A stretch of 64,000 bases of DNA. It comes from Isoetes taiwanensis. Taxonomy: Eukaryota; Streptophyta; Lycopodiopsida; Isoetales; Isoetaceae. How positions within the stretch are numbered: position 1 is the stretch's first letter; each line of letters opens with the position of its first letter. Below the pieces are notes generated by a model that was given only the letters and a program-made list of their open reading frames with translations, was not told the DNA's origin and made no database searches. The DNA lies in NCBI GenBank assembly GCA_021234155.1, contig JAJEKV010000036.1, positions 1,374,777 through 1,438,776 of the forward strand. The letters run 5' to 3'. Made by a program: the position numbers and the translations under genes. This document shows positions 1,978 to 34,550 of the stretch, in pieces.

Positions 1978-3204
1978 CTAACCTCCTGGCAAGTCGGGGT
2001 CGACCAAGTCGGAGACGACTCGCCCATCAAACTCCTTCATAAACTCTGGGTATTGCTTCTCCAAATCCTGCTTCAATACCCATGTCGCGTCTTCCACGGG
2101 CAAGTGCTTCCACTTGACCAAATACTGGAGGAACTGAGACCTCCTAGTCTTCTTGAATGACTTATCAAGAAGTAACTCAGGCACAATTTCGACTTGCTCC
2201 TCCATCATTTCCAACAAAGTTTGAGTATCCAAGACCTCCTCAGGGTTAGGATTGTGCTTTTTCAATAAACTTGCATGGAAGACCTTGTGAACTTTGAGAT
2301 GGGCCGGAAGATCCAACTTGTAGGCTTGGGAGCCCACTCTCTCCAAAATCTTGAACGGACCAGCCCATCGAGGGGCAAGCTTCTTGCAACTCCCAATCCG
2401 AAGCTTAGCTTGCTTTACCTTGATCTTCAACCACACGCTATCGCCTACCTTGAACTCCCTTACGGTCCTGTGCCGATCGGCCACACTCTTCTGCCGACTT
2501 CTTGCTGCTAGAAGGTATCCCCTTACTTCTTCCACCAGCTGCTGCATATCACCTAGCATCTGCTGGGATACTTCAACCTTTGACACAGGATTGTGCCAGG
2601 TGTCCGGGGTTAGGCACTGGTACCCGTAATTTACCATGAAAGGAGACATCTGAGATGACTCCTGCTTGGCACTGTTGTAGGCGAATTCCACCAAGTGGAT
2701 GTACTCATCCCACTTGGACTGCTTATTCCACACATAGCTTCGAAGCATGTCTTCAATGATTCGATTCATCCTCTCCGTCTGACCATCTGTTTGGGGATGA
2801 TATGCCGTGCTCATGGAGAGCTTCGTCTGAATGGTGCTAAAGAGGTCCTGCCAAAAAGCACTCATAAACTTAGAATCTCTGTCAGATATTATCTCCCGAG
2901 GCATGCCATGGAGCCTAAAAATCTCCTTCACAAATAGCTTGGCAGTATCTAATGCAGTGTCCGTAGTCTTGCAAGGCACAAAATGTGCCATCTTAGATAA
3001 CTTGTCTACGACAACCATCAATGCATCCTTGCCTCGAAGAGTTCTAGGGAGTCCTGTGATAAAATCCATACTTATGACCTCCCACTTAGCATTTGGCACT
3101 CCCAATGGCTCTAAGGCACCTGGAATCCGAAGCTGCTCTGCTTTGGTCTGCTGACACAACTGGCAATCCCGAATATATCTAGCTATCTGCCTCTTCATTC
3201 CTGG
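1978..3204 (-). pseudogene. Gypsy integrase and chromodomain
   Basis: The first residues complete an HHCC zinc finger (H-x-H in the preceding frame, then CQLC). The integrase core follows with its three acidic residues visible in MDFITGLPR, SDRDSKF and GQTERMNR (D, D, E). A GPY/F-type region (RWAGPFKILERVG, VHKVFHASLLKKH) and a C-terminal chromodomain with YLVKWKHLPVEDATW complete it; the last is the aromatic-cage-type fold that targets chromoviruses to modified histones. The frame upstream is separated only by a TAG at 3207-3205 in the place of the conserved tryptophan of the F-W-P-G motif (SSYF stop PG), so this was one polyprotein with RT. Start at 3198 is only the first ATG after that stop. 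Confidence 0.9.
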
Positions 3205-4482
3205 CTAGAAATAACTACTTTGAATCTTGAAATAGGTCTTCATGAACCCTGCATGCCCTGCTATTGGGCTGTTATGTGTGTCATGAAGAATTAGCTTCCT
3301 TACCCCTGATGATTCGGGCACACACAACTTATGTTTATGATACAACAGGTTGCCTTCCTTCTTATAATGCTTGAAGGCTTCCCGTTCTTTATCTGTTCTA
3401 GCTTCCCTCGAGAGGCTTTCCCATACTTCCTTGAATTCTTCATCCGATGGCAAGGTCTCCTCAATTTTCTTGCCAAATTCATTCAAAAGAGTGGAAATCG
3501 CATTACAATGCGTTTTTGTCTCAAGGGGTCTTCTAGAAAGAGCATCAGCAACCACATTCAACTTACCTGGCTTATAAGCAATCTCAAAATCATACTCTTC
3601 TAGGAATTCCATCCACCTCCTTTGCCTTAGATTGAGGAGCGGTTGGGTAAAGATGTATTGGAGGCTCTGGTGATCAGTATCTAACTGAAACTTCCTCCCA
3701 AGCAAATAATGCCTCCAAATACGAAGAGCTCTTACAATAGCTAGAAGTTCCTGATCATGGGTTGGATAGCGCTGCTTGGTGTCGTTCAACTTCTTGGAAT
3801 CATAGGCCACTACTCTTCCTTCTTGCATAAGGACTCCACCTGTTGCTATCTTGCTTGCGTCTGTTGCTACTATCTTGTCCTTGTCTAGATCTGGCAGAAC
3901 TAGCACTGGTGCTGTTGTTAAGGCTTCCTTAAGCTTTTCAAATGAAGCTTGAACATTTTCTAGCCAATGTGTTCTCCAATCTTTCACCTTAACACTCTTA
4001 GTGAGGTCCGTCAAAGGGGACGCCCACTTAGCGAAGTCCTTCACGAACTTCCTGTAATAACCTGCCAGACCTAGAAAGCTTCTTACCTCCGCCACATTCT
4101 TTGGTGCTGGCCAATCCACTACTGCTTCAATCTTTGCGGGGTCGGTGGAGATCCCTTCCGCCGATATGACATGGCCCAAGTACTCCACTCTTTCGGTAGC
4201 AAAGTGGCATTTGGAGAGCTTTCCATACAAGCGATGCCGCCTTAACTTTTCCAACACCCTTCTCAAATGCTGACCATGATCTTCAATGGACTTGCTGTAG
4301 ACTAGAATGTCGTCGAAGAAGACAATGACAAACTCATCTAGGAATTCCCTGAAGACGTCGTTCATGAGGCGCATGAAAGTTGCTGGAGCATTCGACAACC
4401 CAAAGGGCATTACTGTAAACTCAAAGTGACCATACCGCGTTTTGGAGCTGGTCCATAAAATCATCTGCCCTTGGCAATGCAT
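3205..4482 (-). pseudogene. Gypsy reverse transcriptase (palm, connection) and RNase H
   Basis: RT motifs begin at [19 protein letters not shown] and include the catalytic box as FFDDILVYS. The thumb and connection follow ([20 protein letters not shown]). RNase H then shows [26 protein letters not shown] and ADALSRR. The end carries the start of the integrase zinc finger (HNSPIAGH). The first RT catalytic aspartate region that should precede TRYGHFEF (about 25-30 residues, the K-x-D-L-x-x-G-Y-H-Q segment) is missing. The reading frame also shifts against the upstream gag-protease frame, with the junction near 4440-4450. The enzyme cannot be functional as encoded. Confidence 0.9.
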
Positions 4483-6286
4483 ACTTATTCTTTATCGTCT
4501 TCTTGTTGAGCTGGCGATAGTCTATGCACATTCTTAAGCTCCCATCTTTCTTCTTCACGAAGAGTACAGGTGCTCCAAAAGGAGACACACTTGCTCTAAT
4601 AAAACCAAGCTCAAGCAATTCCTGGAGCTGCTTCTTGAGCTCAATCAACTCCGGGGTGCTCATCCTATAAGGCGCCTTGCTGGTAGGCTTAGCATCTGGG
4701 GCTAGTGTGATCTCACACTCCACACCCCTATAAGGTGGTAGCTGCCGGATTTCATCCGAGAATACATTCTTGAATTCCGAAATGAGCCTTGCTACTGGCT
4801 TGGGCAACTGATTCCCCTTTTGGTCGCTTCCATCCTGCTTATTGGGCTCAATTGCCTCTAACATCAAAATGTAATCCACCTTATTTCTTTCTATACTTTT
4901 CCTTAGCTGCTTCAAGGAAATACACTGCATAGAAGAAGCTGCCTTCTTACCTTTCACTATGAATTTGGTGCCGTCCGGTGCTGTCATGGCGATCTCATTA
5001 TGGTCGCAATCGATCATGGCTTTTGCTGGTTTTAGGAACTCCATTCTTACTATAAGGTCATATCTTCCAATTTCCATGACCTCTGCCCCCATCGGCCACT
5101 TACTTCCACTAAGGTCTATGTCGAATGTGATCCTCCTCCCCTTAGTGTGCCGAATGGCGCCGTTTGCCATAGCAACTGGCCTTGGCTTAGACTTCAATAC
5201 CTTGTTCTTCATTAGGGCAGCCAGCCCAGGAGAGGCAAAGTTGTGAGAGCTACCTGTGTCTATGAGGACTACATATGGGTTGCTATCTATGATTCCATCA
5301 GCCGCAATGACTGTCGACTGATTTTCAATATCACCTGACTCAATATTTGCACAGATATGGCACTCACCATCTATGAAGTCCTGGGCCTCATGCTGGTCGT
5401 CGTCTTCATCTGCTTCTGTTGGTGAATCCCAATCCCCAAGCTCTGCCAAAGCTGCCTGCATGACGAATGGGCAATTATGTGTTCGGTGCCCTGGCGGGAA
5501 GCACCTGAAACATAGCTTCTTCTCGATACACTCTTGTCTCTTCTCCTTCGGTAGACTGTCTAAAAGACGCTTTAGGGCACTACCCCCTGATGCATTCTGC
5601 GGCTTACGATCCCCAAAGTTCTTACCCTGAGCTCTTCCTTGCTGCTGGTCTCCTGATGGCGTAGCTGCTGATTGCTTACTCTGGTACTGCCCTTGGTACT
5701 GCCCTGTTGACTTTCCTTTGAAGGCCGATTGTTTCTCCCCTGGCGTTGCTGGAGCTTCTTCTAAACTTATGGCTTTATCCTCGGCTTCTGCCACTGATTT
5801 TGGGTTGATTGCTCGGACTAGCCTTTTGATATTACTGTTCAATCCCTCAATGTAAGTTTCAACCGCTTGCCTTTCCGAAACCCCGGGGACATGGAGCCTG
5901 AGTCGCATGAATTCCTCTGTGTACTTTGCTACTGATAAGGTACCCTGGTTCAATCTGTAGAATTGCTGGATCTGCCTGCTAGTATGTGATCTAGGCACAT
6001 AATGTCTGCGAAAGGCCTTGCTGAAGGTCTTGAATCTGCAACTGTTCCTTTTGAGCTTGTTGGACTTTGCGTAGCCTTTCCACCAGATTCTAGCGGCTCC
6101 TATCAAGTTTGCTGTAGCAACCTTCCCTATATCCTTGTCCTTCATGCCATAAGAGTTGCCAAATTCCTCCATCTCGTCAAGCCAGGCTTCTGCCTCCATA
6201 CCTGACCTGTCCTTCCCTGAGAACTGACCCAACTTCCTAGTCTTCCACACATTGCTCATAGCTGTTAACTTTCTTTTGATAGTCAT
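4421..6286 (-). pseudogene. Gypsy gag, protease and N-terminal RT
   Basis: The capsid-type Retrotrans_gag region is seen at residues about 15-170 ([50 protein letters not shown]). A CCHC knuckle [14 protein letters not shown] follows, lacking the usual glycine spacing. An aspartic protease has active site [11 protein letters not shown], and RT fingers run [19 protein letters not shown] to DDFMDQLQ. The frame then hits the deletion that removes RT motif A. Length and order are normal for a chromovirus gag-pol single ORF. Confidence 0.9.
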
Positions 6287-6311
6287 CTGCCATCCTTGCC
6301 CTGGCTCTTAC

Positions 6312-6941: not shown

Positions 6942-8560
6942 TCATCGATGCCCCCTCATAGACTTGAAGAAGTTCTTGACATTCTTCAATCGTAGCCCCT
7001 TGCCGACGTTCTGCAGAATTCTTGCCGCCGATCCTCCTTCTAATGCTCTTGCCATCTGTGGTGCCGGAAGTTCTGGTGCAGTTGCCGCCACTACTGACAA
7101 GTGTGCATCCCTGAGGTGGCCTCTGGCGAAGTCGAGAGAATGGAGAACTACGGCTCTCTTGAAGAGGATAACATGATCTGCTTTGTAGTCTATTCTTGCA
7201 TGCTGCCCGAAGCCTGAAAGTGCTATAAGGAGCGCCACGGACTCCTAACCCCTTGGGCTAAACTCCTTATGGAAAACTATCATCTGTCCTTGGCTAAGGG
7301 CTGGAAGATAGTACCTGAGTGATTTGCCCTTAATTCCGCCCCCGGCTCCCGTACCTCTCCTCTCAGCTGCTTCGTCGAGCACATCTAATGCGGTAAGGTC
7401 TTCGTGGTCTCTCCACATCGTAGTTGGATTCTCCAAGTTGATGCTGCTAGAAGCTTCGCGCATACTCCTGGAGCGCACTTGTCGGCTGGAGCTTGGGCCT
7501 CTTCCCGGCTTATACAGCCTGCTTTGGATCTGTTGGAATTCTTCTTCTGGAATGATGGGTTCTTGATGCTGATACATCTGCCTTATCTGCTAGTACGCTT
7601 GAATGTCTGACATGGTTTCCCCGGCGTAGGAGTGTCGCTCGGCTACTTCCCTTGGGATTTCTTGATAGGAGTAGTCGATGAAGTCACTGCCCTGTTCCTG
7701 TGCAATTAGGCCTAGGAGCTCATCGATCCTGAGACCTTCTTCTTGGCAATGGGGAAGGTTGAGGATGTCGGTGGCGAGTATGTACTCCTCGCCTTCGATG
7801 ATGACTGGGGTCAGGGCCGTGATACCAACAGACGGTTCGAAATCTCGCCTTAATACTTCCTGTTGTCGGGCTATATGCCTCTTAATCCTTCTTGCCTCCC
7901 TCATTTCCCAACTTGGGTTCTCCTCCCCTTGCTCTTCGTAATCCTGCTCAATCTGCAACATAGGTGTTCCCGATGTGGAGCCGTAGTATTCGTACTCCGC
8001 AGTCTCGATCTCGTGGATATCTATCTGCTGCCTCCGAGTGTCGAGAGGTGCCAAATCCAAAGGTTGAATTGACGGTTCCCCTGGTTGGTTGACTGCGTTG
8101 TACTGCATGAACAAAGCTAGGGCTGCTTGGGCTGAGAGGTATCTATGCCTATGGTGCTTGCAAGTCATGTAATCTGGCATGTTTCTGGTTCTATCCCACA
8201 ACCTACTCTTGCCCCTGGATCCTCCACCTATAGCTTGGGTAAGAGAGTCTAGGGAAACCCATTTCCCTCCCCTAGGTGGCAAGCTAACTTCCCAGGGTAG
8301 GATCTGCTCCTCATACTGGCAAATGATGTCGGTGTAGTAGGGAGTTCTGGTCAATGTGGCATGGAGATCAAAGAGGTGATCGAAGACATGGAAGGCTTGC
8401 TCGGCAGGGAAGTCACGGATGTGGTTGGTCTCATTGTACCATCTGACAAAGCTTGATGGCTGACTATGAAAAATGGCTTGCGAAGACGAGTAGGGAGCTG
8501 GAAGATCGCCTGAAGTGCTGAGAGCAGTTTTGATGGGGAGAAAATGACAAATGAGGCCCC
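6942..8560 (-). pseudogene. Extra ORF upstream of gag, unknown function
   Basis: One reading frame runs from about 8540 to 6942 on the minus strand (about 500 codons), interrupted only by TAG at 7592-7590 and TAG at 7247-7245. It contains SSFVRWYNETNHIRDFPAEQ, WEVSLPPRGGKW, TCKHHRHRYLSAQAALALFM and a glutamate-rich middle, and ends LRLKNVKNFFKSMRGHR. I see no gag, pol or env motif and no membrane segment, and I do not recognise it. No in-frame ATG is seen in the N-terminal third, so the start is unclear. It lies between the primer-binding site and gag, where additional ORFs of some plant gypsy elements sit. It could be captured host sequence. Confidence 0.6.
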
Positions 8561-25619: not shown

Positions 25620-25686
25620 CCACGTGCGTTAATAGGGTCAGCAAAAAACCTTCCGTATATGCCTTGTCCAACCTTCTAAACACCCC

Positions 25687-25716
25687 AACAAAGTTTAAAA
25701 TGAAACGCACTTATTT
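25687..25716 (+). repeat. Left terminal inverted repeat of element A
   Basis: AACAAAGTTTAAAATGAAAC followed by GCACTTATTT; inverted match at 34517-34546. A second AAACGCACTT lies just inside at 25722. Confidence 0.7.
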
Positions 25717-26161
25717 GCTGGAAACGCACTTCAAAAGGAATCTTTGAAAGATTCCCTAAAATTCCCTTAAAAAAGTCCATTTTTAAGATTTTTTTGTGAC
25801 AGGTGTGACAATTTAAGTAATTTAGGTACCATTTTTGAGGGGTTGATTGAACATAACTTTCATACAAAAATTTCAAATAGCAATTTTCATCCTCCTAAAC
25901 TAGAACAAAAAATAATTACTTTTATAAAGTGTAGCAAAAAAGGGGCAATTAAAAAAATAGCAAGGGTAATAGAGTGACAAAGAAGTGATATATTCATGGT
26001 TGTGAAAATTGTACAAAATTATGAACAAAATTGTCAAAAATATAGAACATTTTGACAGAGACAGGTCATCACACGCTCTTTTCGTTTTTACATGTTTGAG
26101 TCATCGGACAAACTTACATTTTGCGACAAAGATCGGGGATGCATCTCATCCTCCCACTCAT

Positions 26162-29100
26162 TTAATCCCCTGATCACTTGAGCCTTCATCCTCGGCTTCA
26201 CTCTCAAACTGGATGTACTCGAGCGATCTTCTTCCTCACTTTGTCTACAAGTGAGTCCTCATCATCATCTTTTTTGGCCACCTTTCTAGGTTGTTTGTCT
26301 AATCCACATGCTGACCTTATTAAAGTTTGAGTGACCATACGTAACTTATTAGCGGCAAATGAGAACAAAGTCATATGCAAGAACCTTCACTTCAGATAGA
26401 TCTATGACAGCAGTACTTGCTTTGGACTTTGCTCTCTTTCCCACTCCTGTTTTACCATCTCCAAAGTATAACTCCCACTGAAAGCACTGGCAGGCATTTG
26501 TTCTCATCCGGTGCACTTTTAGTTGAGTGGGAATTCCATCCTCTCTTGTTACCTCCATTACTTTAGCTAGCCGAGCGGCTTCCCGGACTCATCATTATCG
26601 GTGGGGACAGCTATGAGCATTCCTTTCTGAATCTCTGAGACTGAACCAGATACTCGAGCAACTTGTTGTGCTGTGCGTCTGGGGCCAGTGTACATGACTC
26701 TGTCATCTTCATCTGAGCTAGCCAATATCTCTACATGTTCCTCTTGATTATCAACTTGCACGGGGAGAGTTTGCCTAGATGGCCAGTTGAATGTAACTGG
26801 TCTTCGACCTTGTAATGAAGCTTGCAAAATATCACGTTGTTGAAAAAAGCGAGGCCACCATAAAAGCATCTGCCTCTCCAAAGTGGTTAGAACACGGTGA
26901 ATACTTGTCTCAATAAAATCCAATGATTTGCTTGAGTCAAATGCTCTTCCCTCCTTTTTACTCTTTGTGATTTCTTTCAAGCTTTTTAGAGGCATTTGCT
27001 CTGCAGAGAGCATGGAACTAGTATTGGGGATGGTGCGAATGAATTGAATACACAACTGCTGGCTGCCTTTGCAAAGATGTGGCATATTTCTTTCCTTGTA
27101 AGATGGCCCCGCCATCTACAAGTGAAATTTTGATCGATCTTGAAATGTAATATTTCTCAAGGGCTCAATAGCACAAAGGACCCAGTTGATCTCTTCAAAA
27201 ATCCATTCTTTGAAATCATAAGTTTCTTCCAACAACTTCGATGTCCGGGCGAGGATTGTAGGAATCTTGGATAACCTCAATCATTGCTTTAGGTAATTTT
27301 GAGCTTTTTTTTGCAAGGCGTTTAGAGAACCCTCTTGAACATCGATCAATTTGGTCGTGTGTATGACCAACAAGCAGGAAACCAATCTTCACCTTCTTGA
27401 AGATTTGTTTCTCTACTAGCATAGCACAGTAAGCAAACAATGCCTGATTCTTATTTTCCCTTTGTCGTGTTGTCTAGCTGAAGATACAGAACCGGTGGTA
27501 TATGTTCTAGATTGGAAAGAAGCTTATTCAATATTGTGATAGTGAGATTTGGATCAACATGAATGTTTGGATAATTCAAAAATGCCTTGCAAGATAGTTT
27601 TCCATTAAATACCATAGCACCAACAACATGCAGATGTATGAAATCTTCTTGGCCCGGCATCCTTAGGCACATTGACAAAATGTGGTAGGGTGGTCTTCTT
27701 CCGTCCATTCCATCAATAACAAGCGATATGTAGTTGAGTGGTTGTTCGATGCTTTCTTCCTATGTTTTGTCAATTTTCTCCTTTCCAAAGATTGTTGTTC
27801 TCTTTTGTTGTTCAGTTTCTCCTTCAATGCATCTGAAATGAAAATATGTTTAGGAAAAAGGCAAGAACACGTCCTGGAAGCTTACTTTTAGTGTGAAGTG
27901 TCCTTGCATTTTGTCTCTGAGCTTTTAATTCAGAGCATGTAGCACAAACATGGACATCCTATGCTTTCTAGGAATGGCCACGCGAGAAAACTCTTTTTCG
28001 AAAAGCACGATAAAGTAAGAGTAGCGGACAAAGCGTTCTCCCACCTCAACACACATCTCCTTATAATTATCGTAGACTTCTTGTTTAGGTGAAATTGTCA
28101 CTCAAGTGGTACATAGGGCTATTAGGGAGTTTCTCACAAGACTCCTTAAAGAAACCTTCCATCCGGGGAGACACATTGAAGGGCATGAATTACGGTTATG
28201 CCTCTGAATGGCGGTAGTCATTAATGCACGGATTCTTGTCAAGCCTTTTTCTTTAGGCGGTCAAATCGTCTGCTGCCCTAAAGCATGAATCAATTTGAAG
28301 GCCGTTTGACCGAGCGGTTGTGGCCACCAGGCTGTGTAAGTAAACTTCTCACCATCATCGGCCTAATATTGAAGGCTAAGTAGCCCCTTTGGTCTAGCGA
28401 GTCATTGAACTGTAACTATCACGAATCAACCTCAATTCCTTTAGTCCAATCTTAAGCAAACAACGTTGAGAACAACAGTGCTTTGTATGTGTTGCCCGCA
28501 AGTGAGCCTCGTCCATGAGTTTCTTTCTTCTAACAGTTGTACATGCTTTCTTGTGTAAGTTACGCTTAAGATTCTTACTTGCAGGGGCTTTGAATTGAAC
28601 ATAGAGTCTTGTGGCTTTGGTAGGTCCTCGCCCGAGACATCAACATGAGGTGTTTCTTAGCCTAAGAGATCAACTTGAGGTGTACTTGTAGATGCTGATA
28701 GGTTTGGTGTGTGCAAGTCCTGAGGGGAGGTGCTTTCCCTCTCCCTAGGAAAAAGTAATCGAGGTTGGTGACGTAGTTGACCAGCTCCTGAAGTGTCGTA
28801 GAAAACAGGAGTTGCATGTCGCTGACTGCTCCCACTTGTTGTAGTACCATTTAGCGAAATTGATGGAGTTGGCGTGATTTGCCTCCGGGGATTTAGCCTC
28901 TGGTGGACTAAGGGCGACGTACTAAAATGAACTGGAGGAGGCGATCCCGACCTCTCTAGGTCGTGGTGGAGTAAAACGCATTGGTGGGGGCAAACGGCGT
29001 TCGAGGCAGGGGGGTGTGGTGGAGTAAATTGAACTGGTGGTGGAAGCCGAGGTGGTCGTGCTGGAGTGAGCTCAACAGAGCTGGGTGTTGGAATGTCGGA

Positions 29101-29214
29101 GCTAGAATATTCATGACTACTTCCTGGTGTCTGTTGTGGAGGTGTGAAGCTCATTGCAGGAGGGAGCCTGCGAACAGGAGTTGGAGGCTCTGCAGTTCTT
29201 TTCTCTCGAGCCAT
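26162..29214 (-). pseudogene. DUF7869-like (transposase-type) gene of element A, frameshifted
   Basis: From ATG at 29214 a proline/serine-rich N-terminal region runs to about 28660 (repeats of the type PPVQFTPP, PPAMSFTPP). A zinc-binding-looking part follows (HCCSQRCLLKIGLKEL near 28470; CATCSELKAQRQ near 27930), then SPRMEGFFKESCEKLP and EVGERFVRYSY. The core has LYLQLDNTT at about 27470, then in the next frame ENKNQALFAYCAML and FLLVGHTHDQIDRC at 27340. LQLDN...VGHTH-x-x-ID is the hallmark I associate with the DUF7869 domain, which I take to be an RNase H-like transposase. The C-terminal part (27115-26567) is basic/acidic and ends ESEAEDEGSSDQGIK at 26162. An extra G in the GGG at about 27452 breaks the core, and a TAA ends the proline-rich exon. 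Gene limits are approximate. Confidence 0.6.
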
Positions 29215-29237
29215 ACTCAGGAAGCTAGCGTCACACT

Positions 29238-29406
29238 GTATAAATTTATACGACAGAAGAACAAACGGTATAAATTTATACAGAGATGGTATAAATTTAT
29301 ACAAGGAAGGGAAACTCTTGGCAAGAGACAGTATGAATTTATACGAAGATGGTATAAATTTATACAGAGCAGGGCAACATAGAACAAAAACCGTATAAAT
29401 TTATAC
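29238..29406. repeat. Palindrome A cluster 1 (six copies)
   Basis: Six copies of GTATAAATTTATAC, one with a G substitution, spaced 22-40 bases between the start of the DUF7869-like gene and the shared promoter region. Confidence 0.95.
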
Positions 29407-29541
29407 GAAAACTCACAGACACTTGTATTAGAAACTTTATAGAGAAAGGCTATCTGGCTTGGCACTTAGCGGGTACTTAAGCGTGCCCGGCCACCTATTT
29501 TCCATATCACGCACATCGGTCGAAGGCGCCAAGGGTCCGCC

Positions 29542-29549
29542 TTATATAC
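29542..29549 (+). promoter_or_regulatory. TATA box of the ParB-methyltransferase gene of element A
   Basis: CTTATATACC lies about 50 bases upstream of the ATG at 29598, a suitable spacing for a short leader. It sits between palindrome clusters 1 and 2, in the region shared with the divergent gene. Confidence 0.55.
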
Positions 29550-29671
29550 CCCCTCTTATTTGCTCTCCGGAACCTCTATACGCTAGTCCATACGGTCATG
29601 GCCACGTAAGTCTACTTTCCGTACTGTTTTAGTTTCTCTTTTGTTTTAATCTGTTAGAGTGTAAGCCCCAC

Positions 29672-29937
29672 GGTATAAATTTATACCGAGATGACTCTGG
29701 AACGGTATAAATTTATCACGCCGAAAGCACGGCGGTATAAATTTATACCGCCCGTAGCACTTCATGCGGTATAAATTTATCACATAAAGTGCTCGAGCAA
29801 GATAAAATTTATACCGCTCGAGCACAAGGCGTATAAATTTATACGGCTCGAGCACGAGCGGTATAAATTTATACCGACTGTGCTCTGGAGCGGTATAAAT
29901 TTATACCGCTCGTGCTCGAGCCGTATAAATTTATACC
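29672..29937. repeat. Palindrome A cluster 2 (nine copies) inside intron 1
   Basis: Nine copies of GGTATAAATTTATACC or close variants at about 30-base spacing. The short spacers are themselves self-complementary (GCTCGAGCAC, GCTCGTGCTCGAGC). The cluster lies wholly within intron 1 (29606-30165) of the ParB-methyltransferase gene. Confidence 0.95.
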
Positions 29938-30552
29938 GTTTCAGAATTATTTCAGATTTTTGATGTCCAGTGCTCAACGAATGGTCCCGAACCTTAATAT
30001 TTTCGTAATATTGTTGTGTTTCCAGCTTAAATGACACAAATAAAGTGTTAATTTAGTGTGGATTTTATGCCCTTTCATCCTCTTTTTCTACTGTTTTTGT
30101 GTTTCAAAAACTCGAAAAAGGTTAATATTCTTGTGTAAAAATGGTTTTTTTTGCGCGTTTTCCAGCCCTAAGATCAAGTTTGTGCTCGGCGGGTCATCAT
30201 CAAAGGCTGCACCACCAGAGCCACAGACTTATGAACTAAAGGATCAGACTTGGTACGTCCACAGGGGCGCAAGAGAGAGCAAACCCACTGATACGTACCT
30301 TTACTTGTGCAATAAATCAGGGAAGGGCAAGTTCAAGTCTGATGATTATTACCCTGCTGGCGAAATTATGAAACTTGTTGCTACAGAGAACGATGATGAA
30401 GTTCTAATGCAGTGCAACCATGACAAGGGCCCCGTCTACTATGTTCTGAATACTAGAATGTTTAGAATAAGCATGTGCAAGCCTAAAAGGCGTGCGATTA
30501 CATCTCGGACAATTACAAGAACGGCTTTGTAAGTTATTCTTAGTTGCTTTTC

Positions 30553-30568
30553 GGTATAAATTTATACC
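30553..30568. repeat. Single palindrome A inside intron 2
   Basis: A perfect 16-mer GGTATAAATTTATACC lies in the short intron that begins with GTAAGTT at 30529 and ends with a CATTACAG-type acceptor near 30602. Confidence 0.9.
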
Positions 30569-31636
30569 AAATCGCCGTCTCTTAACATAACCCTGCATTA
30601 CAGGACGTAGTAGAAATTCTGATGTCAATAGTGCTGTGCGACGAAAAAGTGTTGGTCAAGGGTCTATGGTACCCCCGTAGTATCGAAGAGGAAGTAGTAG
30701 AGGAAGAGGTAGAGGAAGAGGAAGAGGAAGAGGAGGAACCAATCAACACAAAGGGGAAAGGGTAGGAAGCATTCCACGGTACTAGATACACGACCTCCTA
30801 CCAAGAAAAATCTAGAAAAACAAAGCCCTTGACTATAGAGGAGTCAGCGAAGCTCTTCGGAAGGCTCATGGAGCGGATTATCGTTGTGAAGCCCGGGCAG
30901 ATAAGTCAAGTGCTATTCTCAAGCGGGTTAATGAAACCAAACTGCTCAAACAAACCATTTCTTTGACACTAAGCACTATCAAGAGGCCACCAAAAATGAA
31001 GATGGGGTCGAAAGTGCAGGTCGAAAAGTTGTGCGCGGCACATGTGGCCATTCTTAAGCAAAGAATGAGAAGAAATCCTCATGCGCATGTGTTGCCTCTA
31101 GTTGTTATGGTTGATAGAAGTCAATGCAATCGATTGCGGGATTACAAAAAAGCAGACTTCGAAGATTACACCTACTACGTCCTTGGAGGCACACACGCCT
31201 ACAAGGCTAGAAAAAACTCTCAAAGGAGGAAACCCGTAACGAGGTGTGGAAAAGCGTGGAAGCCCATATTTACGTGGGTATCACAGAGGGCGAAGAGGCA
31301 AAAGTCATTGCCGTGAGTCACAATCTTGACAATGACTTTCGGTTAAAAATGAGCCTAATAGATAAGATCCGATTCATGCATCGAGTACGTGGAGTTCAAA
31401 CAAATGCATGGAGAGGACTTCAAAAAAGCGAAGAATAAGCTTCAAGAGCTTCGAGAAGCCCATTGTGACGAGTGTTGCCTGAGCTATGATTCTGATAAGA
31501 AGCCCATTATGGCTGTCAAACAATACGATAACTACTTTCATTTCGCTTTTCGGAGATGGTCAAGTAAGTAAAAGATTCAATTCAATCTTTTGTAGTATGT
31601 TTAAGCGTGGTTAGAATCTTGTAGTAGCCTCTTGAC

Positions 31637-31852
31637 GGTATAAATTCATACGTGCACGGCAGCGGTATAAATTTATACCGTGCACTGCCGCGCCAGTATA
31701 AATTTATACCGGTGCACGGTCGCATGGTATAAATTTATCTCAGTGCTGATCCTTGATAAAATTTATACCTGTGCTGGTCATGATATAAATTTATACCGCG
31801 AACAGGCACGATATAAATTTATACCGCCGCCGGCACGGTATAAATTTATACC
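31637..31852. repeat. Palindrome A cluster 3 (eight copies) in an intron
   Basis: Eight copies, some with one or two changes (TTCATAC, TTTATCT, GATAAAATTT), at 26-32-base spacing. They follow a GTAAGTAAAAG donor at about 31565 and precede the CGCTTTACAG acceptor near 31921. Confidence 0.95.
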
Positions 31853-32776
31853 GCGTGTTGAGTCGCCGCGTGCCCATCCTCTTACGCCATTCAAGACTAA
31901 ACTTCGTTTGACCGCTTTACAGTGTGGGATCTTCAAGAAAGAATTTTTTGTATGTTTCGAAGATGGGGAGCTCAAAGAACAAGCTAAAGACGCAGGGGGA
32001 AAGAAACCAAAGAAAGGTGGTGAATCAAAACAAAAAATATGAGCATTGTACCACGGGCGATTCTGAGGTCTTAAAAAAAAAAAATATTTGTTCGCCTGTT
32101 GGAAAAAGTAGTTGCCAAAGAATTCACATTAGGCGAGATGGCCAAGGAAGCTAAAACGTAAGCCTCACTTGCTATGCCATGTTTTTTTTCTACCTTTTTT
32201 GTCTTATAATATTTTTCCCTTTGCAAAATCGGAAAGACATTGTCACTTGCCGGCCGAGTTAATGAAGCGGCTCAACCTAGAAGATCGGAGGAGTGCAAAC
32301 TTTGTACCCAAGTTGTACCACGCATGGTATCATCGAGAGCACGCAGTTAACCCGATTGTAGGGTAAGTTTTGCAAAAAAATGTTATGTGTTTGTGCCTTT
32401 GTCTCACATTACTCTTACGAAACAAGAAGAAGGGGCTACCCAATGGATTTTTGAACCTGGTTAAGTAGGGCCAAGGAAGAGAGGCAAAGGTTAAAGGCAA
32501 TTGAACAGGGGTAGAGAGGTCGCCACTTCCGGTTTGATGTACATATGAGAGATTTACCACATTTGGTCGGGGCGTCCAATACGAGGGGTTGTTGAGGGTG
32601 ATTGTACAAGGTTGGGGACTCTTTTAGACAAGCAACATTTTACATTATGCATTGCGAGATATTCCTTATGGATTTAAAATAAAGGATAGCGCGTTTGATG
32701 AGGAGGCTTTCACTCACGTGCAAGTCCGGTCTTTCCTGGATGGCCTCAAAGAAGTCACGACATCTGAAAACTGGAG

Positions 32777-33060
32777 GGTCACAAGGGGGATTCACTGTAA
32801 GTGCCATACAATGTGCCCGAGTGACTTGTAGGGGGTTTTTTCGACCCATTTCCATAATGTTATCGCGTAAGAGGTAGGGGGGTTTTTTGCCACTACTTGG
32901 GGTAAACTTTGTACGGAAGGGGTCGAATTTGCCTTTCAAGAAATCGTATACGGGGGTGTTTTTGATCACCCTACGCACGCACATGGCATACCCCCCTTAC
33001 TATAAGTGAACCCCCCGGGGAGGGTCATCATTTTTCATTCTGACCTTCAGACGATGTCGG
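32777..33060. repeat. Inserted repeat resembling 1530-1700
   Basis: The methyltransferase-like reading ends at about 32776. What follows is unlike the gene and, at 32970-33040, matches the segment at 1610-1700 (ACGCACATGGCATA, then CCCCTTACTATAAG, then GTGAACCCCCCGGGG). It is probably a fragment of an LTR or other repeat inserted in the gene or its intron. Confidence 0.45.
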
Positions 33061-33153
33061 TGCTTAAACCTATGGGAGCTGATGCATGCTTGCCGGCCAG
33101 CTAGCGTTTGGTAAGCTTCACAATTAACGTTTTTTGTTTTACGGTAACTCCAC

Positions 33154-33314
33154 GGTATAAATTTATACCACATCTGTCTTAAGGTTTAAATTTTAAAGGC
33201 TGGAACAACCGTAGTATAAATTTATACAGCAAGGCAATGTCTGTATAAATTTATACGGCTTGCCGCCGTGGTATAAATTTATACAGCAAGGCAACCGTGG
33301 TATAAGTTTATACC
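33154..33314. repeat. Palindrome A cluster 4 (five copies) in an intron
   Basis: Five copies or near copies precede the TTGGCAG acceptor near 33388, after a possible GTAAGC donor near 33113. The spacer CAGCAAGGCAA is repeated between copies. Confidence 0.95.
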
Positions 33315-34057
33315 GCCACACTACTGGGCTAACTTATTTTCCTTGTTTTCTTTTTACTAATTTCTAATTTCTATATTGCTTGGCAGGCTTAAAACAAGCG
33401 TCAAGGGTCATGGTGGTGGTCCGCTTAGTGAGTGTTTTCGAGCATTTTCATATAGGTTTTTACAGCAGCGGACGCAAAAAACCATGGTTCATTTTAATCT
33501 GCAGAATGAAAAGACTCCTCCCCGCAATGCATTTCAGTTCCCAAAATGTTTTCGCGAAATTAAGAGACCCACGGCCCCGGCAGGCGTGGTGTCCCATTAT
33601 CGAAGCCACGCAATGGCTTATTAATAATTTGATGATGGTTTTCTACCGGCACGATCGGATCCTAGATGCCTTTTCCTCGATCGGGCACCACGGCGGTTCG
33701 CCCTTAAGCGGGCGCAATGTTGTCTCCGTCGACATAGACCCGGATAAAGTAAGCTTCATCGGGGACCGGGATAAGCTCTTGCGAATCCTTTCCCGATGAA
33801 AACGAAGGAACTGGGAGCAAAGAACGGTGCCCGGCGATGCTAAGGGCACTTACACGTAAATACGACCTCCACTTACGGGGAAGAAGAGATGAGGAGGTGG
33901 AGTTTGTTGACTTGGAGCTGTGGTGCCCGAGCGGAAGAAACCGCTTGTGCCAATAGGTTTGGAATCGGAAGGAGGCGTCCTTCTTTGTTGTGCTTCGCAA
34001 GAGCCGGATCCCAAAGGGTGCGAGAGTCCCGTGGAATTTGGGAAGAGCCACCTCTCA

Positions 34058-34071
34058 TTATAAATTTATAC
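34058..34071. repeat. Last palindrome A, overlapping the gene's stop codon
   Basis: TTATAAATTTATAC. The TAA of its left half is the stop codon (34061-34063) of the ParB-methyltransferase reading frame. Confidence 0.8.
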
Positions 34072-34516
34072 TGACGAGTTCTTAACCACTTTCATTGTAA
34101 ACTATGTGCTAAGTAATATTATAATTTATTTTGATGAAGATTTTTTAAACCTGAAAAGCTTTGTCTCTCTAACAATGCTTAATTGAAACAACTCTTTCTT
34201 GCTCCGAGATTTCACACTCTTTGTCTTTCCAATGTTTGACTTTTTTAGTACGTCTATTAAGCTTGCAAAAAAACAATCTATATTTTCTTCTGTTTTTAAC
34301 AATAAATACTTACTGAGTTATCAAAGTTAATGTCTCTCTCCTTAAAACAAGCATTTTTTTTTTTTGCCCTTCTTTTAAAATGAAAAAGCTTTAAAAATGT
34401 TGCTTTTTTGGGGGTATCCCGAATGCTAATTGCTCAACAATATATTTTGCTCCCTATTTTGTGTGTTTTTTTTAAGTTTTCAATTTTTATAAAGGAATCT
34501 TTCAAACGCACTTCTT

Positions 34517-34546
34517 AAATAAGTGCGTTTCATTTTAAACCTTGTT
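34517..34546 (-). repeat. Right terminal inverted repeat of element A
   Basis: AAATAAGTGCGTTTCATTTT then AAACCTTGTT is the inverse of the left terminus. A forward AAACGCACTT lies just inside at 34504. Confidence 0.7.
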
Positions 34547-34550
34547 CCCC

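Follow-up and report, generated by a model that had tools for sequence, protein, structure and literature searches.

A multicopy transposon of Isoetes taiwanensis with a predicted DUF7869 transposase, a putative adenine methyltransferase and intronic palindrome arrays

Positions 25687-34546 of a 64,000-nucleotide stretch of the Isoetes taiwanensis genome (the window) hold a DNA transposon of ~8.9 kb with terminal inverted repeats (TIRs), which recurs across the genome and whose two divergent genes encode a DUF7869 protein and a DNA methyltransferase. We lean, with somewhat more confidence than doubt, towards a reading in which the DUF7869 protein is a DDD transposase and the methyltransferase, CcrM-like and likely directed at adenine, marks the element's own arrays of the palindrome GTATAAATTTATAC for expression. 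A first-pass annotation of the window had proposed a single mobile element bringing both genes, and the comparison of genomic copies described below agrees with that proposal.

Boundaries and genomic copies of the element

The first-pass annotation had reported inverted termini of about 24 identical bases, CCCC on both outer sides and subterminal copies of a short motif, all of which we recovered, the termini being slightly longer than described. The TIRs are 30 nt each (25687-25716 on the plus strand and 34517-34546 on the minus strand) and 97% complementary with one mismatch, and the element's termini read AACAA...TTGTT. Direct reading and flank comparison place the two CCCC copies of the target site duplication (TSD) at 25683-25686 and 34547-34550. 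AAACGCACTT or its complement occurs four times within the terminal 45 bp, paired subterminally, at 25703-25712, 25722-25731 and 34504-34513 on the plus strand and at 34521-34530 on the minus strand; the subterminal copy at 25722-25731 may be a transposase site.

When the termini were compared with the genome, many other copies were found. The first 100 bp of the element matched at 100% identity at all 40 scored places, while the last 100 bp matched at 100% at 37 of 40 and at 99% at the other 3; the 1174 left-end and 1161 right-end hits from which these were drawn are first-look candidates, and both copy estimates are lower bounds. Since the ends recur across the genome at 99-100% identity, a chance inverted repeat is excluded, and the 4-bp duplications and copy number likewise rule out both a tandem satellite and a chance repeat.

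Twenty of the 40 left-end copies were fetched for comparison, and the 14 with the exact right terminus were combined with the window copy into a full-length set of 15 that spans 8,512-8,937 bp. Exact 4-bp duplications flank 13 of the 15 (all except L010 and L020), namely CCCC, TTTT (twice), TTTG, TAAA, TGAT, GGAT (twice), CTAT, AGTT, GATG, TACA and AAAA. Excluded from the length and duplication counts were L014, L015, L023, L024 and L027, in which the retrieved sequence does not include a right end, and L026, whose right end is diverged and which has ATCC on both flanks. L015 carries a long insertion with a left-end frame that, by eye, resembles a Copia reverse transcriptase. Compared by eye over 60 bp, the flanking sequences of these 15 copies are mutually different, and homology therefore stops at the reported ends rather than continuing past 25687 or 34546.

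Frame breaks are common among the copies read, and conserved columns contain 2899 gap letters vs 2411 substitutions when long gaps are counted base by base. Since nanopore assembly of repeats may add frame errors, the intactness of single copies is not judgeable here. C-to-T decay of the copies was considered and not seen, as the counts for CT (323) and GA (336) are similar to those for TC (361) and AG (328).

Two divergent genes and their predicted products

As the first-pass annotation had described, two divergent multi-exon genes lie between the ends; both have splice-like joints. The DUF7869 gene occupies 26101-29214 on the minus strand with one predicted intron (~27833-27885), and the ParB-like/DNA methyltransferase gene runs on the plus strand from 29598 to ~34060 with seven predicted exons; both are frame-broken in the window copy. 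The window matched the DUF7869 gene and the last methyltransferase exon in all 15 full-length copies, the middle parts of L012, L018, L019, L020, L025 and L028 being too diverged for blastn and aligned only by MAFFT. To avoid selecting by the transposase side, we also took 20 of the 40 right-end matches in listing order, with the window and two earlier copies skipped. The methyltransferase domain was present within 1.6 kb in 20/20, and in 15/20 the DUF7869 region lay as far away as expected; the remaining five copies may be truncated, expanded or gene-less. The two genes thus co-occur in copies of the element, and both sets bear out the idea of one element carrying the pair.

The minus-strand protein matched PF25273 (DUF7869) with E values of 3.1e-23 and 5.9e-12 over 27216-27759, a domain predicted to form an RNase-H-fold core and containing the minus-strand motifs VIDGMD (27703-27720), LQLDN (27469-27483) and GHTHDQID (27345-27368). 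Two AlphaFold models of DUF7869 homologues showed an RNase-H fold with conserved aspartates, and their best structural alignments were to retroviral integrases and the Mos1/SETMAR transposases, with integrases and transposases occupying rows 1-42 and 1-32 of the respective VIA-align lists. Foldseek alone puts other RNase-H-like nucleases first, and the fold matches are middling. The homologue models also place a BAH-like C-terminal domain at 26349-26640 on the minus strand (borders approximate; GMLIAVP at 26603-26623), with a weak Foldseek match (E 0.1-0.3) that is level with MazF. From these models, we predict that the protein combines an RNase-H fold, an aspartate triad and a BAH-like tail and acts as a DDD cut-and-paste transposase; the fold and the conserved acidic residues support the earlier suggestion that DUF7869 is of transposase type.

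Of 120 DUF7869 homologues, 20 come from one Riccia species; the domain's range takes in Chara, a liverwort and, at its far end, mussels. A viral origin was rejected, as none of 32 pattern matches in viral contigs was confirmed as a DUF7869 relative. Within the open-licence literature, we found no paper mentioning DUF7869, none on a transposase with a BAH domain and, by title, none on ParB-methyltransferase N6-adenine transposons in eukaryotes.

The first-pass annotation called the plus-strand product a ParB-methyltransferase fusion. The methyltransferase part of that claim held firmly in sister copies, with PF01555 matching L014 (E 7.3e-16, 59.2 bits vs a curated cut-off of 26.7) and L071 (E 1.6e-14, 54.9 bits), while the ParB label drew weak matches (E 0.003-0.022). 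The nearest solved relatives are CcrM (E 2.3e-9, 176 residues), MboIIA and RsrI, and since these are adenine enzymes, the methyltransferase likely targets adenine. Motif IV reads DIPYGFK in the window (32658-32678, plus strand) and DIPYG in at least 11 of the 21 sequences searched, the general rule for this motif being (D/S)PP(Y/W), as in DPPY. It precedes motif I, which reads LDAFSGSGTT in L009, L010, L014 and L016 (among 16 rows listed) and in L071; we take this order to be that of beta-class methyltransferases. The window copy has lost GSGTT from its motif I region (LDAF... NVVSVDIDPDK, 33658-33748, plus strand) and reads LDAFSSIGHH instead. In the region of its motif IV exon, ~237 bp (32782-33018; query gap 7095-7333, wider in some copies) are left uncovered when the fetched copies are aligned by blastn. 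The enzyme resembles the CcrM and MboIIA adenine enzymes in having motif IV ahead of X-I and in its match to CcrM, but differs from them in having DIPY for DPPY, a fused N-terminal ParB-like part and seven predicted exons.

The core of this N-terminal part (LVVMVDRSQC ... GGTHAYKA, 31098-31207, plus strand) has weak PHROG matches in sister copies. The exon before the methyltransferase matched PHROG ParB-like families weakly, at E 0.003-0.02, in 3/8 sequences, and PF20188 (DUF6551), which we take to be ParB-like, weakly as well, at E 0.022; unrelated families scored about as well. Comparison with solved structures returned unrelated rows only (E >= 0.42), and a length-limited search that queried a 254-aa ParB-like fragment directly gave no match at E <= 0.001. 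On these weak profile matches, we take the N-terminal domain only tentatively as ParB-like. Among 7991 candidates scored, a single protein relative turned up, in the fern Adiantum nelumboides (E 3.7e-32, 46% across 15% of the query, with motif IV as ADAPYG). Phage relatives of the methyltransferase, in 668 phage records, are all below 60% identity. Two loci were retrieved among the 12 phage relatives listed and one protein was scanned, Mycobacterium phage Amgine gp37, which has an Mrr-type tail and gave no ParB match.

Palindrome arrays, selection and the proposed mechanism

The palindrome GTATAAATTTATAC occurs at 25 sites in the window with at most one mismatch, where 0.01 would be expected, and all 25 lie within 29238-34071. 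Motif searches placed six in the divergent promoter (29238-29406, one with one mismatch), six exact sites in methyltransferase intron 1 (29673-29936), one in intron 2 (30554-30567), six in intron 3 (31638-31851, at most one mismatch), five in intron 6 (33155-33313, at most one mismatch) and one, with one mismatch, at the methyltransferase stop codon (34058-34071). Across the 15 full-length copies, which hold 12 to 33 cores each, 329/329 palindrome cores fell outside the exon model: 319 in the divergent promoter or in methyltransferase introns 1, 2, 3 and 6, and 10 overlapping the stop codon of that gene. Cores are most often spaced 27-32 bp apart, the outer bases are G...C in 293/329, and both the left 3.3 kb and the final 0.4 kb of the element are free of cores.

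Copies are about equally similar over the left 3.0 kb (0.85-1.00 per 200 bp), whereas from ~28690 they split into type A (7 copies, window included) and type B (7 copies), with L012 apart. Identity between A and B is 0.68-0.89 over the right part before the final 60 bp become identical again. From this drop in identity beyond ~28690, it follows that the methyltransferase half is older than the transposase half and that modules were exchanged, an exchange also reported for Sola2-Fanzor elements (PMC3627910, excerpt); the divergent promoter lies near the border of the exchange of methyltransferase modules between elements. The palindromes are the same in both types, though the array regions are just 0.68-0.84 alike. 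The right part of L012 belongs to neither type and might represent either a third type of methyltransferase or a mosaic. The ratio of observed to expected CpG is 0.54 in the shared part (25687-28690) and 0.95 in the exchangeable part (28691-34546), with 0.54 and 0.72 in the flanks.

Between types, 16 hand-picked pairs of methyltransferase fragments gave ratios of nonsynonymous to synonymous divergence (dN/dS) of 0.03-0.18; two of these pairs compare L012 with type A, and the non-full-length L014 and L024 were placed in B and A, respectively, by window identity. For three type A pairs, the ratios were 0.05, 0.06 and 0.31. Fragments had been selected as open frames and cut back to windows in which identity was 60% or higher, a choice that biases dN somewhat downwards, but purifying selection holds despite the trimming, with a dS of 0.36-1.6 vs a dN of 0.02-0.13. 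The methyltransferase has therefore been kept by selection, and purifying selection on its protein is shown by these comparisons.

In the mechanism that we propose, the DUF7869 protein would act at the AACAA...TTGTT and AAACGCACTT ends with a 4-bp stagger, while the N-terminal part of the methyltransferase would guide that enzyme to the shared promoter and to the introns of its own gene, where it would modify the palindromes or adenines close to them. Such methylation could hold chromatin open against host silencing so that both genes are transcribed, or it could time expression with replication. In eukaryotes bearing AMT1, an enzyme of a different family, N6-methyladenine (6mA) accompanies permissive chromatin (PMC12695648, excerpt). 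We propose a VANDAL/VANC-style system by which the element would mark itself against silencing, here through methylation of adenine.

Several other explanations bear on what the arrays and the methyltransferase do. It is possible, though we would not expect it, that the palindromes are bound by the transposase or a host factor rather than by the methyltransferase; the position of arrays in the shared promoter and the N-terminal half of the DUF7869 protein leave room for this. Against it, the arrays belong to the exchangeable right module, as the methyltransferase gene does, and the shared left 3 kb has none. Bacterial elements are known to be under Dam control, and palindromes at the transposase promoter would suit a role of this kind, in which hemimethylated ends or promoter switch the transposase on or off after replication. 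We consider this doubtful, as most palindromes lie in methyltransferase introns and the terminal regions named above contain none of the 329.

Transposons capture genes, and the methyltransferase could be cargo of no use to the element, a view that the lost motif I and the unmatched 237-bp stretch of the window copy would fit. Its presence in every copy of the right-end sample and in both diverged types, together with the low dN/dS between them, makes this quite unlikely. Very unlikely, in our view, is a selfish modification-and-nicking unit, in which the ParB-like part nicks unmarked DNA that the methyltransferase protects, so that loss of the element is punished or rivals are cut; a bacterial ParB-methylase fusion, Bce_0392, does have nicking activity (PMC5512222, excerpt), but here the ParB-like domain matched weakly and catalytic residues were not identified. 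We judge it just as improbable that DUF7869 is not a transposase and that an unrelated enzyme moves the element in trans. The middling fold matches and the nucleases that Foldseek alone favors speak for such mobilization, whereas the integrases and transposases filling the top VIA-align rows, the DUF7869 gene in 15/20 right-end copies and the 20/120 homologues from one Riccia species speak against it.

Elsewhere in the window, the minus strand at 1981-6307 holds a Ty3/gypsy retrotransposon whose three open frames encode gag, protease, reverse transcriptase, integrase and chromodomain, and Rfam and tRNA scans of the window returned no matches.

Significance and comparison with known systems

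Our boldest reading, which we offer only tentatively, is that DUF7869 represents an undescribed eukaryotic transposase superfamily with a DDD core and a BAH chromatin reader, and that in this lycophyte lineage it works alongside a ParB-adenine-methyltransferase of phage type, which deposits 6mA on palindrome arrays in the element's promoter and introns as a self-addressed epigenetic on-switch. DNA adenine methylation is controversial in land plants. The same applies to eukaryotes at large, where its existence and its role are both described as controversial (PMC12695648, excerpt). If our interpretation is true, a transposon family with a selected bacterial-type methyltransferase would be a natural writer of adenine marks with the GTATAAATTTATAC arrays as its predicted address, in a species for which nanopore reads are reported (PMC8566536, excerpt). 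It would also assign a function to DUF7869, a domain of so far no known function, and widen transposon anti-silencing from acting on 5-methylcytosine (5mC), as VANC and TET do, to writing a second mark.

The 30-bp TIRs and the fixed 4-bp duplications, exact in 13/15 copies, are hallmarks of cut-and-paste elements, and the duplication length is that of the Sola type, Sola2 elements having 4-bp TSDs (PMC3627910, excerpt). We rejected several other superfamilies. Members of the CMCT clade (EnSpm, Transib, Plavaka and Lanisha) carry C(2)C and H(3-4)H between the second D and the last acidic residue and mostly end in CA...TG (PMC12730594, excerpt), whereas L024 has a single cysteine between the second and third aspartates and the element ends in AACAA...TTGTT. 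The C/DxxH found in the corresponding interval of hAT, P, MuDR, Kolobok and Dada (PMC9587614) is absent from L024, and the duplications vary (CCCC, TTTG, GGAT, GATG, TACA and others) instead of being the TTAA of piggyBac/Kolobok (PMC9587614).

The element resembles the Sola2-Fanzor transposons of social amoebae in its TIRs, its 4-bp TSDs, its pairing of a large transposase with a second enzyme gene and its common 5' part joined to differing 3' parts, but it carries a PF01555 methyltransferase in place of Fanzor, and its TSDs are not AT-restricted (CCCC, GGAT, GATG) (PMC3627910, excerpt). This likeness to Sola is one of TSD length and architecture. Mariner elements of algal viruses also combine a transposase and a DNA methyltransferase in one element; they differ in being mariners of viral hosts with C5 or Methyltransf_26 enzymes plus an endonuclease (PMC3627910, excerpt). 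Charophyte and dinoflagellate elements are likewise eukaryotic mobile elements with their own DNA methyltransferase, but they are retrotransposons with C5-cytosine enzymes (PMC5890265, excerpt). A fungal DNA transposon with its own DNA-modification enzyme has been proposed to escape silencing; that system oxidizes 5mC, whereas here a plant element likely uses adenine methylation. In its arrays, the element is like VANDAL21 of Arabidopsis, a MuDR transposon with the accessory gene VANC21, in which the short target motifs of VANC21 are densely packed into introns and further non-coding sequence (PMC5735166, excerpt). The two differ in their transposases and in that VANC binds DNA, counteracts silencing and reduces 5mC (PMC5735166, excerpt), while the accessory protein here is a predicted methyltransferase.

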